Shown: positions 42,887-48,915 of the stretch, piece by piece
Position numbering within the stretch: position 1 is the stretch's first letter
Layout: each line of letters starts with the position of its first letter
Source of the DNA: Sphingorhabdus wooponensis
GTDB taxonomy: Bacteria > Pseudomonadota > Alphaproteobacteria > Sphingomonadales > Sphingomonadaceae
Assembly (NCBI RefSeq): GCF_003933235.1
Contig: NZ_RWJI01000001.1
Span: forward strand, 750,001 to 814,000
DNA length: 64,000 nt
Reading direction: 5' to 3'
Position numbers and translations under genes: made by a program
The notes under the pieces: model-generated
Told to the model about the DNA's origin: nothing
What the model saw: the letters and a program-made list of their open reading frames with translations, nothing else
Databases searched by the model: none

Positions 42887-44227
42887 ATGGAGAATACATC
42901 ATTCTACCGCACAATTTGGCGTTGGCATTTTTATGCCTCTTTGTTCGTCATGCCACTTGTTCTCTTGCTGGCGACAACCGGCGCAATCTATTTGTTCAAG
43001 CCGCAATTGGACCGTTGGGAGGAGCGCGCCTTTAGCACTCTTTCGACCCATGGTGCCGTGTCTCCCAATGCACAATTGGCCGCGGTCATGGATGCTTATC
43101 CAGGCGCGCAGTTTCACGGTTACCGCTTACCCGCGCGAGAAGGGGATGCCGCTGTAATTCATGTCGGGTTCGCCGACGGTCGGGCCATGCGTGACGTCTA
43201 TGTGTCGCCGCAGGGCAAGGTTTTAGGGAGTTTTGACCCGGAAAGTCGCATTTCCGCAACGGTCTCCCGCATTCATGGCTCGCTTTTAATCGGCAGGGTT
43301 GGGGATTGGATTGTTGAACTGGCCGCTTGCTGGGCCATCGTGATGATCCTGACCGGCCTATATATGTGGTGGCCGCGCGGGCAGGGGCTTCGCGGCGTCG
43401 TCTGGCCCCGAATAGGCAAGGGCAAGCGCATATTCCTGCGCGACCTGCATGCTGTGACTGGCTTTTGGGTTTCGGGGCTCGCGCTTGTTTTGCTAACCAC
43501 TGGATTGCCGTGGGCGAGTGTTTGGGGAGATGCCTTTCGCTTGGCAAGGGCGGAGCTAGGCCTTGTTCAAGGCGCGCAAGACTGGAAAACAGGAGGCCAC
43601 GCCCCACATGCCGAGCATGATCATGATGCGATGATGAAAATGCAAGCGGCTGGAATACCGCTTGTTGGCCTGTCCGACATGGTAGCCAAAGCGAAACTGG
43701 AAAATTTACCGCATCCCGTTTTCGTGAAGCCGCCGGGCGCGCCGGAGCGTTTTGGTCCACCGACACCCATGGCGTGGACGATTAAATCGGAGGCGCAAAA
43801 CCGGCCACTAAACAGCAGCATCACCTTTGATGTTGCGACGGGCAAGGAGATGTCGCGAACGGATTTTGCGGATAAGCATGTCATTGATAAGGCCGTCAAT
43901 TATGGAATTGCATGGCATGAGGGACAGCTTTTTGGCTGGATCAATCAGCTTATTGGTGTGCTTACTGCGTTGGGCCTGATCACTTTGGTGATATCGGGTT
44001 TTATGATGTGGCGGCAGCGTAAGCCGGTTGATGCGCTGGGGGCGCCAATTGCCCCTGCTGTGCCACAGAAAATACGCGGCGTGGCGGTGATCATCGCGGT
44101 AATGGCCATATTGTTGCCGTTGCTCGCTATGTCACTGCTGGCTTTGTGGCTGTTTGACCGCTTGCTGTTGCCCCGCCTTCCGGCCTTTGCACTTTGGCTG
44201 GGTGTTAGGCCAGCTCAGATGGCATAG
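42887..44227 (+). CDS. PepSY-associated membrane protein (putative ferric or cupric reductase-like)
   Basis: A 446-residue protein with four main membrane helices, the first at YASLFVMPLVLLLATTGAIYLF, then WIVELAACWAIVMILTGLYMWW, LVLLTTGLPW and near the C-terminus LITLVISGFMMWR. Paired tryptophan-rich helices and histidines (RWHFYASLF, RIHGSLLI, RDLHAVTGFW) match the PepSY-TM family. A His-rich loop GGHAPHAEHDHDAMMKM lies near residue 240 and may bind metal. An AGGAGG ribosome binding site sits right over the receptor stop. Such genes often encode inner-membrane reductases for TonB-imported iron chelates. Confidence 0.85.
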   Translation: MENTSFYRTIWRWHFYASLFVMPLVLLLATTGAIYLFKPQLDRWEERAFSTLSTHGAVSPNAQLAAVMDAYPGAQFHGYRLPAREGDAAVIHVGFADGRAMRDVYVSPQGKVLGSFDPESRISATVSRIHGSLLIGRVGDWIVELAACWAIVMILTGLYMWWPRGQGLRGVVWPRIGKGKRIFLRDLHAVTGFWVSGLALVLLTTGLPWASVWGDAFRLARAELGLVQGAQDWKTGGHAPHAEHDHDAMMKMQAAGIPLVGLSDMVAKAKLENLPHPVFVKPPGAPERFGPPTPMAWTIKSEAQNRPLNSSITFDVATGKEMSRTDFADKHVIDKAVNYGIAWHEGQLFGWINQLIGVLTALGLITLVISGFMMWRQRKPVDALGAPIAPAVPQKIRGVAVIIAVMAILLPLLAMSLLALWLFDRLLLPRLPAFALWLGVRPAQMA

Positions 44228-44619
44228 CGCGCGGCTGTTTCGCGGATAAGTGCAATCATATTGGGAATGCCCTGCGTCCGGTTTGAGCTGAGTTGGTTCT
44301 TCAGATCAAACGGGGCGAGGGCATTTTCGATATCGGTATCTAAAATTTCGGCAGCATTTTTGCCGTCCACCGTTTTGAGGACAAGCGCGATGATGCCTTT
44401 TGTAATTGCGGCATTGCTGTCCGCCATAAACGCAAGTTGTTTATTCTCAGTGACCGGATAAACCCAAACACTCGCCGAGCAACCGCGCACCAATGTCGCC
44501 TCGGTCTTCAGCGCGTCGGGCATTGGTGCCAATTCGCGGCCAAGATCAATCAACAAACGATAACGGTCGTCGGCTTCAAGGAATTCATATTCTTCTTGGA
44601 TGTCGGTGAGTGTGGTCAT
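44215..44619 (-). CDS. sufE: Cysteine desulfurization protein SufE
   Basis: A 134-residue sulfur-acceptor protein. The active cysteine is in VRGCSASVWVYP, and the flanking helices (QEEYEFLEADDRYRLLIDLG) are typical. It takes sulfur from the SufS desulfurase for iron-sulfur cluster assembly; no other suf gene is nearby. It ends 13 bases inside the convergent PepSY gene. ATG 44619 is preferred over GTG 44625. It may be transcribed with the upstream small membrane genes, 24 bases away. Confidence 0.94.
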   Translation of the reverse strand: MTTLTDIQEEYEFLEADDRYRLLIDLGRELAPMPDALKTEATLVRGCSASVWVYPVTENKQLAFMADSNAAITKGIIALVLKTVDGKNAAEILDTDIENALAPFDLKNQLSSNRTQGIPNMIALIRETAARYAI

Positions 44620-44643
44620 GGCCACCGCATATGGCTGCGGGGG

Positions 44644-44886
44644 TTAGATATCAATCCCTGCTGCGATAGCCTCAAGCTTTTTGACGCGCTCTTTTAAGTC
44701 GGCGACTTCAATCCGTGATGTCGCCATTGGCACCGGCGTATCACCACTGCGGCGCGCAACGTCCAGTTCGGCATGCTTCAGCGCAAGCCAATCGCGCCAT
44801 CCACGCAACCCCAGCGAAGATACAATCCCGATGGACAGCAACGCAAAAGCGCCGATGATGATGTAGAAATTGGGATCCTGTTCCAT
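44644..44886 (-). CDS. Small single-pass membrane protein with coiled-coil tail (Psp-linked)
   Basis: An 80-residue protein. One membrane helix lies at about residues 8-24 (YIIIGAFALLSIGIVSSLG), followed by a basic stretch and a short C-terminal heptad region ending LKERVKKLEAIAAGIDI. The LKERV..LE pattern is shared with four other proteins of this cluster. It looks like a paralogue of its upstream neighbours. The ribosome binding site GGAAGG lies just upstream of the ATG. Function is unknown; an envelope-stress role is inferred from position downstream of pspC. Confidence 0.75.
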   Translation of the reverse strand: MEQDPNFYIIIGAFALLSIGIVSSLGLRGWRDWLALKHAELDVARRSGDTPVPMATSRIEVADLKERVKKLEAIAAGIDI

Positions 44887-44913
44887 GGTTCCTTCCTTTC
44901 GCTCCGCGCGCCG

Positions 44914-45186
44914 TTACCGGCTCCGCAGTTCCTCAATCTGACGGTTAAGATCATGTGCGCTGCTATTCTCAGTCGCAATGCGTTCCAGTACCTGAATACG
45001 TTCTTTCAGCGCCTTGATCTCGTCTTGCATCTGCTGCGTTTCCGCGCTGTTCAACCGACGGTGGGTTTTGGTACCCATAAAGTCTCGATCTTCAACAATG
45101 CCATGCTTGGCTTTTTGCTTTGTCTGAATAATTTTGCCTGCGGTGACGATAAAGATGATCGCAACGACCATTTCAAACGGGCCCAT
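44914..45186 (-). CDS. Small membrane protein with coiled-coil tail (Psp-linked)
   Basis: A 90-residue protein with an N-terminal membrane helix (MVVAIIFIVTAGKII), a basic cytosolic stretch with KAKHGIVEDRD, and a C-terminal coiled coil (EIKALKERIQVLERIATENS ... RQIEELRSR). The KxKHG and LERI...EIExLR patterns recur in the two genes upstream. A strong AGGAGGA ribosome binding site precedes the ATG. It lies between a 16-base palindrome and the 80-residue homologue. Not recognised as a named family; placed with the Psp module by context. Confidence 0.78.
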   Translation of the reverse strand: MGPFEMVVAIIFIVTAGKIIQTKQKAKHGIVEDRDFMGTKTHRRLNSAETQQMQDEIKALKERIQVLERIATENSSAHDLNRQIEELRSR

Positions 45187-45213
45187 AAAATCCTCCTCAA
45201 ATTCCCAAGTAAC

Positions 45214-45229
45214 GCGGTTTTAAAACCGC
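45214..45229. repeat. Perfect 16-base palindrome between two small Psp-linked genes
   Basis: GCGGTTTTAAAACCGC reads the same on both strands. It lies in the short gap between the 108-residue and 90-residue genes, directly beside the stop codon of the former. It could be an operator half-site pair or an mRNA hairpin. No run of T residues follows, so a terminator is unlikely. Confidence 0.7.
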
Positions 45230-45556
45230 TTAATTGCTTGGCCCGCGAAGAGCCTCAATTTCCGATCTCAGCTTGTGGCTGTCGTCGACAATGATTTTTT
45301 CCACATTGGCAAGCCGGTCCTTAACAGACCCAAGTTCCGCGCGGAGTTGGGCGTTTTCCTGGCTTAGCAACTTAACCCGCTCAACGGCTTCCTGATCAGT
45401 TTTGGGATATACAGCCTGACCCCAGACACCATCGAGTGGATAACCGTTCTTGATACGCATCCAAGTTGTCAGCACCCATCCGGCCGAAATCGCAACGATA
45501 CCGATACCGATCATGGGGCCAATTGTGTTTATCATAGCGAGTTCATTTGGATCCAT
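45230..45556 (-). CDS. Small membrane protein with GYPLD motif and coiled-coil tail (Psp-linked)
   Basis: A 108-residue protein. A membrane helix (IGPMIGIGIVAISAGWVLTTW) is followed by MRIKNGYPLDGVWG and a long coiled coil that ends VEKIIVDDSHKLRSEIEALR plus four residues. The GYPLD/E segment and tail are very similar to those of the 99-residue protein just upstream, so the two look like a duplication. A GGGGAG ribosome binding site precedes the ATG. Function unknown. Confidence 0.8.
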   Translation of the reverse strand: MDPNELAMINTIGPMIGIGIVAISAGWVLTTWMRIKNGYPLDGVWGQAVYPKTDQEAVERVKLLSQENAQLRAELGSVKDRLANVEKIIVDDSHKLRSEIEALRGPSN

Positions 45557-45571
45557 TTCATCTCTCCCCTT

Positions 45572-45871
45572 TTAACGCAGTCGTTCGATTTCTTCGGACA
45601 AGCGTCCAGCCTTATCCGTCACAATCCGTTCGAGCACCGCGACGCGCTCTTCTAGATGACCGATTTTGCCATTAAGCGCCTCATTTTCGTTGCTCAAAAG
45701 CATGATTTTGCGTTCGGCTTCGGGATAGTCGCCATCGGTTAGCGCGGTCTTGCCGCCCCATTCATCTTCCAAAGGATAGCCATGTTTGGCGCGGATCCAG
45801 TTGTTGACCAGCCAACCGACCGTCAAAAGCGCAACAATCGCAATAACGAAATTGGGTCCTCCAAAGTTCAT
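45572..45871 (-). CDS. Small membrane protein with GYPLE motif and coiled-coil tail (Psp-linked)
   Basis: A 99-residue protein with a membrane helix (FVIAIVALLTVGWLVNNW), the segment IRAKHGYPLEDEWGG, and a coiled coil ending VLERIVTDKAGRLSEEIERL. The ATG at 45871 overlaps the stop of the 51-residue gene by one base (TAATG) and has AAGGA upstream, so it is preferred to the TTG at 45886. Paralogous to the genes at 45230 and, more weakly, 44914. Confidence 0.8.
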   Translation of the reverse strand: MNFGGPNFVIAIVALLTVGWLVNNWIRAKHGYPLEDEWGGKTALTDGDYPEAERKIMLLSNENEALNGKIGHLEERVAVLERIVTDKAGRLSEEIERLR

Positions 45872-46026
45872 TAGAAGTCCTTCCAAGGCAGACGGCGGTT
45901 AAGCGGGCGGATTGGGGCGTCGCGATAATTAACGCGCCAATTGTGGCGGTCGGCCTGACGCTTTTTCTGCGCAAAATGGCGGTAGGTAAACCAACCAATA
46001 AGGCCAAGAATGATGAGCGTGAACAT
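45871..46026 (-). CDS. 51-residue membrane microprotein in the psp operon
   Basis: A very short gene that begins MFTLIILGLIGWFTYRHFAQ and ends LPWKDF. The N-terminus is a single membrane helix, followed by a strongly basic tail (KKRQADRHNWRVNYRDAP). It is fitted between pspC, 26 bases away, and the 99-residue gene, with which it shares one base. The tight coupling and clear membrane helix support it as a real gene. Function unknown. Confidence 0.7.
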   Translation of the reverse strand: MFTLIILGLIGWFTYRHFAQKKRQADRHNWRVNYRDAPIRPLNRRLPWKDF

Positions 46027-46052
46027 AAGCTATTTCCTTTATAAGCTTTTGG

Positions 46053-46436
46053 TTAACGCAAGCTTTCGATTTCGTCGGCCAGCTGCTTGTTGTTGCTGAC
46101 ATAATATGTCTCCATTTCAGCCAAGCGATGGTCGATTTCCCGAAAGCGCGAACGAATGTCGCGGGTGGTGCGGGCAGGGGATTGGCGTACGCCTTGCCAA
46201 AATTTCTGCTCTTCGCGGTCGTCGGTATACAGATGCACGGGCTTTTGATGGGCCATCCAAGCCGTTATGACATAAGCGATCAGCGTCCAAGGGAAGCCGC
46301 CCATCAGCGTGAGCATGACGGTCCCTAAGCGAACCCAAAGGGCATCAACGCCAGTATAATCCGCGATCCCAGCGCAGACGCCCTTCCATTTGGCATTTTG
46401 CTTATCGAGATAGAATTTGGTGTGTTTCCCTGACAT
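46053..46436 (-). CDS. pspC: PspC domain protein with added coiled-coil tail
   Basis: A 127-residue protein. The PspC domain spans about residues 4-68 (KFYLDKQNAKWKGVCAGIAD and a membrane helix through GGFPWTLIAYVITAW). The C-terminal 50 residues are cytosolic and end in the coiled coil LAEMETYYVSNNKQLADEIE. That tail resembles those of the downstream small proteins. PspC helps PspB signal membrane stress to PspA/PspF. The ATG at 46436 gives the natural start MSGKHTKFYL. Confidence 0.92.
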   Translation of the reverse strand: MSGKHTKFYLDKQNAKWKGVCAGIADYTGVDALWVRLGTVMLTLMGGFPWTLIAYVITAWMAHQKPVHLYTDDREEQKFWQGVRQSPARTTRDIRSRFREIDHRLAEMETYYVSNNKQLADEIESLR

Positions 46437-46437
46437 T

Positions 46438-46725
46438 TCAGCGGTTCCTTTCCAGCCTACGTACATTTTCGGGGTCAAAATCTGGCGTGTCGAGTTCCAT
46501 GCGCCGCGGCCGCCAATCGGGATTTTCCTGCGCGACCAAGCGCTCCACCGTGTCAAGGCGATCTTCAAGCCGGCGGGCCAGTTCATGCATATCGCCAAGC
46601 ATACGCTCGTCATCATTGGTCAGCGTTGCCGCAGTTTTCCAGCGGGTCACATAATGGAGTACGAGCCATGGGAGAGCTACGAACAGCATTCCTACGACCA
46701 TGACGGGGACAAGTACCTCTTCCAT
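46438..46725 (-). CDS. pspB: Phage shock protein B
   Basis: A 95-residue inner-membrane protein. The N-terminal helix (VLVPVMVVGMLFVALPWLVL) is followed by LHYVTRWKTA and a coiled coil (LARRLEDRLDTVERLVAQEN), the standard PspB plan. The tail after the coil (about 22 residues) is longer than in enterobacteria. AAGGAGG precedes the ATG. It sits between pspA and pspC with gaps of three and one bases. Confidence 0.92.
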   Translation of the reverse strand: MEEVLVPVMVVGMLFVALPWLVLHYVTRWKTAATLTNDDERMLGDMHELARRLEDRLDTVERLVAQENPDWRPRRMELDTPDFDPENVRRLERNR

Positions 46726-46728
46726 GGC

Positions 46729-47412
46729 TTAAGCCTCCTTCTTCGGATCGGCCTTCATGGCCTTTTTCATGGCTTCCAACTCTGCGTCGACGACATCGAA
46801 GCTTTCCAGCGCGGCGATTTCGTCGCCCAAAGTGCGCGGTGCATCTGACCCAATGGAGAGCGAGTCCGCATATCCCTGGGCTTCATCGACGCGGCGTTCG
46901 AGGACATCAAAGCGTGAAAATGCCTCACGGACCTTGTCGCCATTGTACATGGTGCGCAGCTTGACCTGATTTTCGGCGCTTTCCAAACGTGTCATGAGGG
47001 CATTTTGGCGGCTACGCGCGTCGGCGAGTTTCTTCTGCAGCTTGTGAATATCCTGTTCGGATGCCTTGAGCGCATCGTTCAGAACATCGACCTCCGCAGT
47101 TAACTGCTCCTTCATGTCCGTTGCCTTGCGCTTTTCCAACAAGGCCGCCTTTGCAAGATCTTCTCGGTCTTTTGAAAGCGCCAGATGCGCTTTGTCGGTC
47201 CAATCGGTTTCAAGCGTGTTCAACTTGTCGATATGGCGACGCAGCTCTTTCTGGTCAGCGATGGTGCGCGCAGCAGATGCCCGGACCTCGACCAATGTTT
47301 CTTCCATTTCCAAAATGATCATGCGGATCATTTTGGCTGGGTCCTGCGACTTGTCGAGCAGGTCGGTCACATTGGCAGCGATGATATCGCGGGTTCGTGA
47401 AAATATGCCCAT
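46729..47412 (-). CDS. pspA: Phage shock protein A
   Basis: A 227-residue ESCRT-III-like membrane-protecting protein. It starts MGIFSRTRDIIAANVTDLLD, which carries the amphipathic membrane-binding helix, and continues as an almost entirely alpha-helical coiled coil with DPAKMIRMIILEMEETLVEV. PspA binds stressed inner membrane and, when free, holds back PspF. The ATG at 47412 was chosen because the longer frame adds an unconserved head. Confidence 0.95.
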   Translation of the reverse strand: MGIFSRTRDIIAANVTDLLDKSQDPAKMIRMIILEMEETLVEVRASAARTIADQKELRRHIDKLNTLETDWTDKAHLALSKDREDLAKAALLEKRKATDMKEQLTAEVDVLNDALKASEQDIHKLQKKLADARSRQNALMTRLESAENQVKLRTMYNGDKVREAFSRFDVLERRVDEAQGYADSLSIGSDAPRTLGDEIAALESFDVVDAELEAMKKAMKADPKKEA

Positions 47413-47521
47413 GGGGTAACTCCGATAATGTGTATTGGCGACTTCGTTCAAAAAGGTGGCGACCGGATGCCTTTCGGCGGGTGAGGGGGAGCTGGGGCAC
47501 TCCGGTCGCAGGTTACCGTAA

Positions 47522-47710
47522 TCAGGCAAGATAGCTGACAACGATTGACCTATTCGGTTGGATGTGGGCGCTGATCTCGCCGCCGTTGCGGTGGTTCAGA
47601 ACCGAAACGGCATAGCTGGTAAAGATCATCGTGAAGGACAAGGCTATCGCCAACCAGAGACGGCTATCCTGTTCGTTTGGATGATTGCCGATTTCGATAT
47701 CTTTGCGCAT
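47522..47710 (-). CDS. 62-residue membrane protein, first gene of the psp operon
   Basis: A 62-residue protein with one membrane helix in its middle (LWLAIALSFTMIFTSYAV) and short polar ends. It lies between the sigma-54 promoter at 47763-47777 and pspA, so transcription from that promoter must pass through it. An AGGA sequence is found about ten bases before the ATG. I know of no named family. The gap of 109 bases to pspA shows no further gene. Confidence 0.68.
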   Translation of the reverse strand: MRKDIEIGNHPNEQDSRLWLAIALSFTMIFTSYAVSVLNHRNGGEISAHIQPNRSIVVSYLA

Positions 47711-47762
47711 TGCATCTATTTCCTATGTTGTTTGCCAATATTGCTGGCTTGCAGGATATATA

Positions 47763-47777
47763 GCAGGGACCGTGCCA
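47763..47777 (-). promoter_or_regulatory. Sigma-54 promoter of the psp operon
   Basis: On the minus strand this reads TGGCACGGTCCCTGC. The -24 element TGGCACG is perfect, the -12 element CTGC has one difference from TTGC, and the GG-to-GC spacing is correct. Start of transcription is expected near 47751, about 40 bases before the 62-residue gene. The divergent sigma-54 activator pspF supports the call. Confidence 0.87.
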
Positions 47778-47836
47778 GTTTGCGTTTTTGTTGCATTTCT
47801 GCCGTTTTTCAAAATTTACATGTGCAAGGTGCTAGT

Positions 47837-47867
47837 AATTATTGCCACTCTATGGTGAATTATGCCA
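47837..47867. promoter_or_regulatory. Candidate PspF upstream activating sequence
   Basis: Two near-identical direct repeats, AATTATTGCCA (47837-47847) and AATTATGCCA (47858-47867), place their GCCA ends 20 bases, about two helical turns, apart. They lie 60-90 bases upstream of the sigma-54 promoter and just before pspF, where an enhancer-binding protein would act on psp and perhaps on itself. The assignment is inferred from position and repetition only. Confidence 0.35.
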
Positions 47868-47877
47868 ATATTTGAAA

Positions 47878-48915
47878 ATGGATCGGGATAATGTTCAATT
47901 CATTGGTCAATCCACCGCATTTTTGGATGCCGTGGAGCGTGCAAGCCGTGCTGCGCCGCTTAATCGCCCTGTATTGGTCGTAGGCGAGCGCGGGACTGGC
48001 AAGGAGTTGATTGCAGAGCGCCTACATCGCTTAAGTGCGCGTTGGGACGGGCCTCTGGTTACAATCAACTGCGCCGCCTTGCCGGAGACATTGATTGAGG
48101 CCGAACTGTTCGGGCATGAGGCCGGGGCGTTTACCGGCGCAACGCGGGCACGCGAAGGCCGTTTCGAAGAGGCGGATGGTGGAACGCTTTTCCTCGACGA
48201 ACTTGGTACCTTGAGCATGGGCGCGCAGGAACGCTTGTTGCGCGCTGTTGAATATGGCGAGGTGACACGCATTGGTTCATCGCGGCCCATACGCGTTGAC
48301 GTGCGCATCGTGGCGGCAACCAATGAACATCTGCCTCATATGGTCGACAAGGGACGGTTTAGGGCTGACTTACTTGACCGCTTATGTTTTGAGGTCATCA
48401 CTTTGCCGCCGCTACGCGTGCGTGAAGGTGATATTGAGGTTCTGTGTGAATATTATGGACGCAAGATGGCTGCAGAACTGGGTTGGGATGGCTGGCCTGG
48501 ATTTGGCGAGGTCGCTACGCGCGCTTTAGAAAACCATCTTTGGCCAGGCAATGTCCGCGAACTGCGCAATGTTGTGGAGCGCGCGGTATACCGCTGGTCT
48601 GACCCCGCACAGCCCGTCGATTATATTCAGTTTGATCCGTTTGACAGCCCGTGGCGCGGTGGGTTGGCGGCTTCGGCGCCTGCGCAGGTGCAAGCCGACA
48701 ACCAAAACAGCGTTGCCGAACCGCGTTTTGCGACGGACACAAGTTCTGCGGCGGATGTGACCGACTTTCGTGAGGCGACGGAGAAATTTGAAAAAGCGGT
48801 CTTGGAGCAAGCCTTGGCCAAATGTCGCTATAACCAGCGACAGACCGCCAAGGCACTAAATCTCAGCTATGATCAGTTACGCCACACGTTGAAAAAACAC
48901 GATCTTTTAGGATAA
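47878..48915 (+). CDS. pspF: Sigma-54-dependent activator PspF
   Basis: A 345-residue enhancer-binding protein without an N-terminal sensory domain, as expected of PspF. The AAA+ module has Walker A GERGTGKELIAERLH, the sigma-54 contact loop GAFTGA, and Walker B GGTLFLDELGTL. The C-terminal Fis-type helix-turn-helix is NQRQTAKALNLSYDQLRHTL. It is divergent from the psp genes. The ATG at 47878 gives the start MDRDNVQFIGQS. Confidence 0.95.
   Translation: MDRDNVQFIGQSTAFLDAVERASRAAPLNRPVLVVGERGTGKELIAERLHRLSARWDGPLVTINCAALPETLIEAELFGHEAGAFTGATRAREGRFEEADGGTLFLDELGTLSMGAQERLLRAVEYGEVTRIGSSRPIRVDVRIVAATNEHLPHMVDKGRFRADLLDRLCFEVITLPPLRVREGDIEVLCEYYGRKMAAELGWDGWPGFGEVATRALENHLWPGNVRELRNVVERAVYRWSDPAQPVDYIQFDPFDSPWRGGLAASAPAQVQADNQNSVAEPRFATDTSSAADVTDFREATEKFEKAVLEQALAKCRYNQRQTAKALNLSYDQLRHTLKKHDLLG

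Follow-up and report, generated by a model that had tools for sequence, protein, structure and literature searches.

In the alphaproteobacterium Sphingorhabdus wooponensis, the phage-shock protein (psp) operon continues beyond pspA, pspB and pspC into a series of genes for small membrane proteins, several of which end in the same coiled-coil tail. The operon lies in a stretch of 64,000 nucleotides (nt), called the window below (NCBI RefSeq assembly GCF_003933235.1, contig NZ_RWJI01000001.1, positions 750,001 to 814,000), and positions are those of this stretch. Sequence comparison supports the view that the tails of these proteins, in the types designated A to D, are homologous, forming a single module with kinship to PspB as well as to PspC. 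With a probability of roughly 0.6, types A to D are detached PspB/PspC tails that take a place beside or instead of PspB and PspC in the membrane complex signalling to PspA; their most likely role, as judged from sequence, is that of alternative PspB- or PspC-like partners in the PspA pathway.

The shared tail and its kinship with PspB and PspC

The pattern LxxRhxhhERIxTD...LxxEIExLR closes the proteins P0005, P0006 and P0007 (Table 1). An earlier, sequence-only reading of this DNA had ascribed the tail to four of the five small genes that follow pspC. It is whole in these three, while P0008 has the first block (LKERVKKLEAI) and then ends AIAAGIDI without EIExLR; P0004 carries no tail and was rejected as a member of the family. 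The coils of PspC and PspB had been said to fit the same pattern, which stands for the end of PspC (METYYVSNNKQLADEIESLR) but holds for PspB in the first half only. A GYPL segment is, as had been noticed, common to P0005 and P0006; it is invariant in 12 aligned type B proteins, and only its GY is invariant in 12 aligned type A proteins.

Among the 196 genomes of the order that were scanned, 182 have a PspB match, 110 of these belonging to the window's own family (f1), which the names returned by a type B scan (see below) indicate to be the Sphingomonadaceae. The psp loci read were 61 of these 110 (the window plus 60 hand-picked loci) and 20 from other families. Small proteins encoded 3' of pspC were typed by their front part as A (P0005), B (P0006), C, D (P0007) and E (P0008); type C, with the front AEKAAQYA, was not found in the window's operon. 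The distance from the coil block to the terminal E-I-x-x-L is 10 residues in PspC from 59 of the 61 own-family and all 20 other-family loci, and the C-terminal E-I-x-x-L of the tail module keeps this spacing in types A (34/39), B (50/52) and C (66/68). In type D only 15/53 have it, the remainder showing 12, 13 or 17. A tree built from the tail regions of 24 loci (85 sequences) groups B, own-family D and C well (with one C row apart) and A poorly; two D-like proteins of another family, f8, fall with C, and the order of duplications is not resolvable from this tree.

Profile-profile comparison relates the types to one another and to both Psp proteins. The hhalign probabilities, which refer to single pairs and are uncalibrated for coils, are 99.9 for A-B, 99.2 for A-C, 99.6 for A-D, 97.7 for B-C, 99.1 for B-D and 98.6 for C-D. 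Against PspC they are 92.5 (A), 89.6 (B), 86.0 (C) and 92.7 (D), over 37-44 columns reaching the C-terminus of PspC. Against PspB of other families, type C scores 95.9 over 72 columns that include the membrane helix, D scores 79.5, A 73.9, and B is weak at 39.8. Since PspB and PspC compared directly reach 9.4, it is the tails that bridge the two. The coil of PspA itself, used as a control, shows no relation to the tails in this comparison (at most 2.6). Type E, represented by P0008, was not accepted as a full member, because D is its one clear relative in this comparison (86.4), the other values being 57.3 for C, 33.1 for A, 4.5 for B, 1.3 for PspB and 0.3 for PspC.

Searches with single profiles agree in both directions. 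The PspB and PspC models match tail proteins: TIGR02976 finds 9/10 type C members (E values up to 0.1, best 1.7e-7), PF06667 finds 9/10 of type C (best 3.1e-3) and 4/13 of type D (best 6.1e-5) at the same limit, and TIGR02978 finds 8/10 of type C (E up to 0.1, best 3.7e-5) and 12/12 of type B (E 0.1, best 1.3e-4). The window's own members remain below the PspB family cut-offs (25.6 for PF06667, 51.7 for TIGR02976), with 12 to 14 bits for P0005 and P0007 and no match for P0006, and three tail proteins matched in a PspB scan of sampled genomes all lie below the curated cut-off. In the reverse direction, when the 20 other-family loci are searched with tail profile C or D, the gene occupying the place of pspB is recovered in 14 (E 9.7e-4 to 4.6e-7). 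Over the window's genome (2.18 Mb searched), the type D profile, which contains P0007, retrieves P0007, P0005 and P0006 at E values of 2e-8 or better, the next match having E 0.3. The suggestion that a PspB-like module had been duplicated thus holds insofar as there is one homologous module related to PspB and PspC; the window's tails, however, are nearer to the C-terminus of PspC than to PspB, and the link to full-length PspB is clearest for type C.

Several observations weigh against the proposed reading, and those that concern the similarity itself would be accounted for if generic coiled coils had arisen by convergence on unrelated one-helix proteins sharing no descent with PspB or PspC. 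The coils are short, and Pfam and NCBIfam scans return weak matches to other coiled-coil models as well, in type B for instance VPA1267 (11/12) and Npun_F5560 (10/12); one type C member fits an unrelated Pfam model (5.2e-4) better than any fits PspB. The control pair PspC-PspA scores 24.9 in hhalign, so that some coil background exists. In a shuffle test with profiles from other families only and shuffles that preserve the hydrophobic pattern, in which the sequences are related rather than independent, few type A and D proteins exceed 99 % of the shuffles against PspB (4/39 and 10/55), as against 50/52 for B, 59/68 for C and 0/53 for E; the counts against the PspC tail are 21/39 (A), 35/52 (B), 41/68 (C), 14/55 (D) and 32/53 (E). 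Because hhalign probabilities are uncalibrated for coils, a null was made by permuting the columns of the tail alignment 200 times, each column staying in its class (hydrophobic, mixed or polar), and the real score was reached by none of the 200 for PspB and by one for PspC. This result, the failure of the PspA control, the alignment of type C with PspB through the membrane helix, the return matches of the tail profiles to PspB and the identical spacing in PspC speak against convergence, which was set aside as highly improbable on the shuffles, the column permutation and the PspA control.

Conservation of the cassette, orphan tails and loss of PspB

Tail genes were detected by profile match at E 1e-3, a threshold at which some may be missed. 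At least one gene of types A to D follows pspC in all 61 own-family loci, most often three (23 loci), four (14) or five (13), less often two (6), one (4) or six (1). Type A is present in 38 of the 61, B in 51, C in 49, D in 50 and E in 53, and sufE lies downstream on the same strand in 58. Among the 20 other-family loci, 18 have no A-D gene and two have one D, and sufE lies within 200 nt of pspC in six. A scan of named genomes with two peptide patterns of type B, in which a tail gene is present by construction, returned at least 378 stretches; the best 80 of these comprise 76 titled as sphingomonads and four titled only Alphaproteobacteria or Proteobacteria. All 80 have pspA and pspC, and the 64 of them that span at least 9.5 kb carry two to six tail genes each, with sufE in 62. 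The tail cassette is a trait of the sphingomonad lineage. The sequence-only reading had been staked on reciprocal similarity and on a gene order kept beyond this genome; because the similarity is reciprocal and the order is conserved, it survives on both counts.

In the three own-family genomes for which the scan of the order found no PspB (G053, G146 and G186), pspA and pspC are still accompanied by tail genes, and the PspC of G053, 88 amino acids (aa) long, has no tail. These cases bear on the idea that the tail proteins are decoys, acting as rivals either of PspC in binding PspA or of PspA in binding PspC, their induction feeding back to shut the response off. Such a feedback part might well consist of a coil without the PspC domain and be encoded downstream in the same operon, as the tail proteins are. 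Retention of the tails where PspB, and in one genome also the PspC tail, is missing fits a positive role better, and we regard decoys as quite unlikely.

An association of a similar kind appears in family f8, where 23 of the 26 PspB-bearing loci were read (4 + 19). A second, tail-less PspC, mostly of 73-84 aa, occurs in 13 of the 23. In 11 of these 13 a D-type gene comes directly after it, whereas none of the ten loci without the second PspC has a D; the order pspC, second tail-less PspC, tail gene is found in L093, L100, L254, L259, L262-L264, L268-L270 and L272.

Relatives of the tail also occur outside the own family. In a sample of 398 genomes of the phylum, 379 of them outside the family, the D profile (E 1e-5) matches 44 genomes, 19 own-family and 25 others. 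All 25 others have PspB, as against 60 of the 379 overall (hypergeometric p 6e-23 over genomes). Since genomes are related, the count over families is safer: the seven families with tails are all among the 16 with PspB, which gives p values of about 4e-6 to 3e-5, depending on whether 80 or 60 families are assumed.

The remaining points on the negative side concern gene order and function. The association in f8 splits along genera, and therefore reflects few independent events rather than 23. The 19 orphan loci read, from 16 of the 25 other-family genomes, showed neither PspA nor PspB nor PspC out to about 6 kb, and the neighbours of seven inspected orphan tail loci differ. In one own-family genome, G030, a tail gene sits apart from the psp operon on a different contig, where inspection out to about 6 kb revealed no psp gene; this tail gene (L293, 5728-6117 of contig 6) also matches the PspB profile (E 5e-5). 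The types themselves come and go, as in the window's own genus, where A, B and C are missing from L033, and B and C from L036. Finally, in E. coli it is through their membrane parts and not through the zipper that PspB and PspC pair (PMC3068692, accessible in part).

The orphans and the variation of types between genomes might rather be expected of independent small effectors, homo-oligomers that stabilise the membrane alone and share the coil by descent only. Such a role is ascribed to further small Psp proteins, for instance PspD and PspG, which in E. coli are small accessory Psp proteins as well. For independent effectors, however, neither the presence of PspB in every orphan-bearing genome of other families in the sample searched nor the position of tail genes right after pspC in every own-family locus read would be expected, and we consider this explanation unlikely.

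A possible role in the PspA pathway and relation to known systems

If the tail proteins are partners in the PspA pathway, they would be single-span inner-membrane proteins with the N-terminus outside and the coil in the cytoplasm. A hydrophobic segment scoring at least 1.6 is present in 34/39 (A), 50/52 (B), 67/68 (C) and 50/53 (D) proteins. A cytoplasmic location of the tails is suggested by the positive-inside count, the flank of the membrane helix next to the coil being the more positively charged one in 35/39 (A), 48/52 (B), 68/68 (C) and 53/53 (D). The predicted structure of P0006 has helices at 3-37 and 55-103, the tail being uninterrupted (mean predicted local distance difference test score, pLDDT, 73.6; predicted template modelling score, pTM, 0.32), and the AlphaFold2 (AF2) model of PspC has one uninterrupted tail helix at 87-126 (mean pLDDT 76.2, pTM 0.47). 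These single-chain helices are compatible with pairing of the tails, rather than a demonstration of it. A search of solved-structure sequences with PspB and PspC gave no match better than E 0.6.

The tail genes may have originated when a PspB-like gene was duplicated long ago, or when the PspC tail was moved onto a membrane helix of its own, and would then have multiplied between pspC and sufE in an ancestor of the sphingomonad family. Their products would be made together with PspA from the PspF/sigma54 promoter and might serve as several alternative sensors or anchors, relaying different membrane upsets to PspA. Complex formation, contact with PspA, binding, induction and stoichiometry of the tail proteins are presumed in this picture. 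In E. coli, the C-terminal zipper of PspC is required for PspA binding and full induction (PMC3068692, accessible in part), and PspB and PspC turn the response on and protect the membrane as well (PMC5596341, likewise accessible in part). A more far-reaching version, which we put forward tentatively and hold to be doubtful as it stands, is a combinatorial receptor in which one coil is exchanged between PspC and the tail proteins made along with it, usually three to five in number; which stress releases PspA would then depend on the composition of the complex and not on PspB-PspC alone, and in some genomes PspB would be wholly replaced.

The closest known proteins are PspB and PspC themselves. 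Like PspB (PF06667, TIGR02976), the tail proteins have one membrane helix, a coil with LExRLxxhERI and a place in the psp operon, and type C aligns over most of the length of PspB. Unlike PspB, they lack the segments HYxTxWK and D-x-E-x-P-x-W-R, the window's members fall short of the curated cut-offs, and most add the EIExLR end. They resemble the C-terminal coil of PspC (TIGR02978 positions about 72-121) in being helical, in the usual spacing and in ending at the very C-terminus, and differ from PspC in lacking the PspC domain and in bearing the coil on a separate membrane helix with linkers of their own (GYPL, AEKAAQYA).

The protein AOL22920.1, which enters the comparison below, comes presumably from Erythrobacter litoralis DSM 8509. 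The record of that strain is CP017057 (PMC7660246, accessible in part). The accessible part of Ravi et al. 2024 (PMC11237479) states that psp operons can contain duplicates of PspB, AOL22920.1 being an example, and that PspC may end in a divergent C-terminal PspB-like domain; several paralogous types, their conservation, orphan relatives and PspB-less genomes are not described in that part. The words 'Alphaproteobacteria' and 'Sphingo' do not occur in the accessible part of PMC9239133, and the literature searched yielded no account of these sphingomonad proteins. PspB duplicates in psp operons are thus already known; the multi-type family, its fixed place and the cases of loss and swap were not found in the literature searched.

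For the old question of how PspB and PspC sense membrane damage and relay it to PspA, a contact helix copied onto separate proteins, and kept in some genomes where PspB or the PspC tail is missing, offers natural experiments on the sensing versus the signalling part. The sharing of the tail suggests that a stress sensor may have become a set of interchangeable parts. It also provides a likely setting for several hundred small membrane proteins (at least 378 stretches encode a type B relative) and for the orphan relatives in other Proteobacteria.

Layout of the operon, promoter and leader

The features of the operon are collected in Table 1. That five small genes follow pspABC on the same strand with tight spacing is borne out, the intervals ranging from a 1-nt overlap (at 45871, where the start of P0005 meets the stop of P0004) to 43 nt. 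In Pfam and NCBIfam, P0004-P0008 reach the cut-off of none of the models, and a Pfam scan found no PspC domain (PF04024) in P0004-P0009. P0004 or a relative is present in three of the 81 loci (the window, L032 and L036), all of one genus. The gene closing the cassette is provisionally named sufE-like, and the divergent activator gene, given its position, is presumably pspF; some related loci likewise have a homologue of it adjoining pspA. A second open reading frame (ORF) with a PspC domain, very short, lies elsewhere in the window's genome, at a great distance from the psp operon (L277, G000:C1:1276617-1276784).

Table 1. Features of the psp operon and its surroundings in the window, in order of decreasing position
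Feature	Description	Position	Strand	Basis
pspF (presumed)	divergent sigma54 activator gene	47842..48915 (start may be 47878)	plus	ORF
sigma54 -24/-12 site	CTGGCACGGTCCCTGCT; presumed PspF-dependent operon promoter	47762..47778	minus	GG-N10-GC motif
P0009	62-aa leader membrane ORF, first after promoter	47522..47710	minus	
hairpin then T run	between leader ORF and pspA; attenuator- or terminator-like	47459..47509	minus	
pspA	P0001, 227 aa	46729..47412	minus	TIGR02977, 266 bits
pspB	P0002, 95 aa	46438..46725	minus	PF06667, 93.7 bits; TIGR02976, 91.9 bits
pspC	P0003, 127 aa, C-terminal coil included	46053..46436	minus	TIGR02978, 129 bits; AF2-model helix 87-126
P0004	51-aa one-helix protein without tail	45871..46026	minus	
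P0005	type A tail protein, 99 aa (GYPLEDEWGGK, LERIVTDKAGRLSEEIERLR)	45572..45871	minus	
P0006	type B tail protein, 108 aa (GYPLDGxWG, VEKIIVDDSHKLRSEIEALR)	45230..45556	minus	
P0007	type D tail protein, 90 aa (LERIATENS...RQIEELR)	44914..45186	minus	
P0008	type E half-tail protein, 80 aa (SRIEVADLKERVKKLEAIAAGIDI)	44644..44886	minus	
sufE-like gene	closes the cassette	44215..44625 (start near 44618-44625, stop 44215)	minus	

The sigma54 pattern alone is not significant across the 64 kb. Its position is conserved: in the 700 nt upstream of pspA, the top-scoring site reaches at least 11 of 13 in 76 of the 81 loci, as against 1 of 80 in the 2 kb downstream of pspC, and a sigma54 gene was found in the window's genome. 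Terminator-like sites within the operon show no excess (6 found, 5.3 expected).

Right after the sigma54 site, 48 of the 61 own-family loci have a hydrophobic leader ORF of at most 90 aa. These ORFs end in Ala in 46 of 48 cases (23 LA, 12 IA), compared with 11.8 % of all six-frame ORFs of the loci; their sequences otherwise differ widely, P0009 being matched by sequence in four loci only, the window included. The Ala end is possibly a C-terminal degradation signal or part of a conserved leader peptide. The hairpin between leader ORF and pspA in the window folds at -25 kcal/mol (z -2.5; 3 of 200 shuffles equal or better). It was not listed by the terminator scan, as its loop is too long, and has no Rfam match at gathering scores. 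Across the leaders, a hairpin with a T run is present in 25 of 48, against 3 of 144 mononucleotide shuffles. Two loci, L043 and L051, differ in that their psp leader begins with an ORF of about 165 aa, whose product by eye resembles a TonB C-terminal domain protein.

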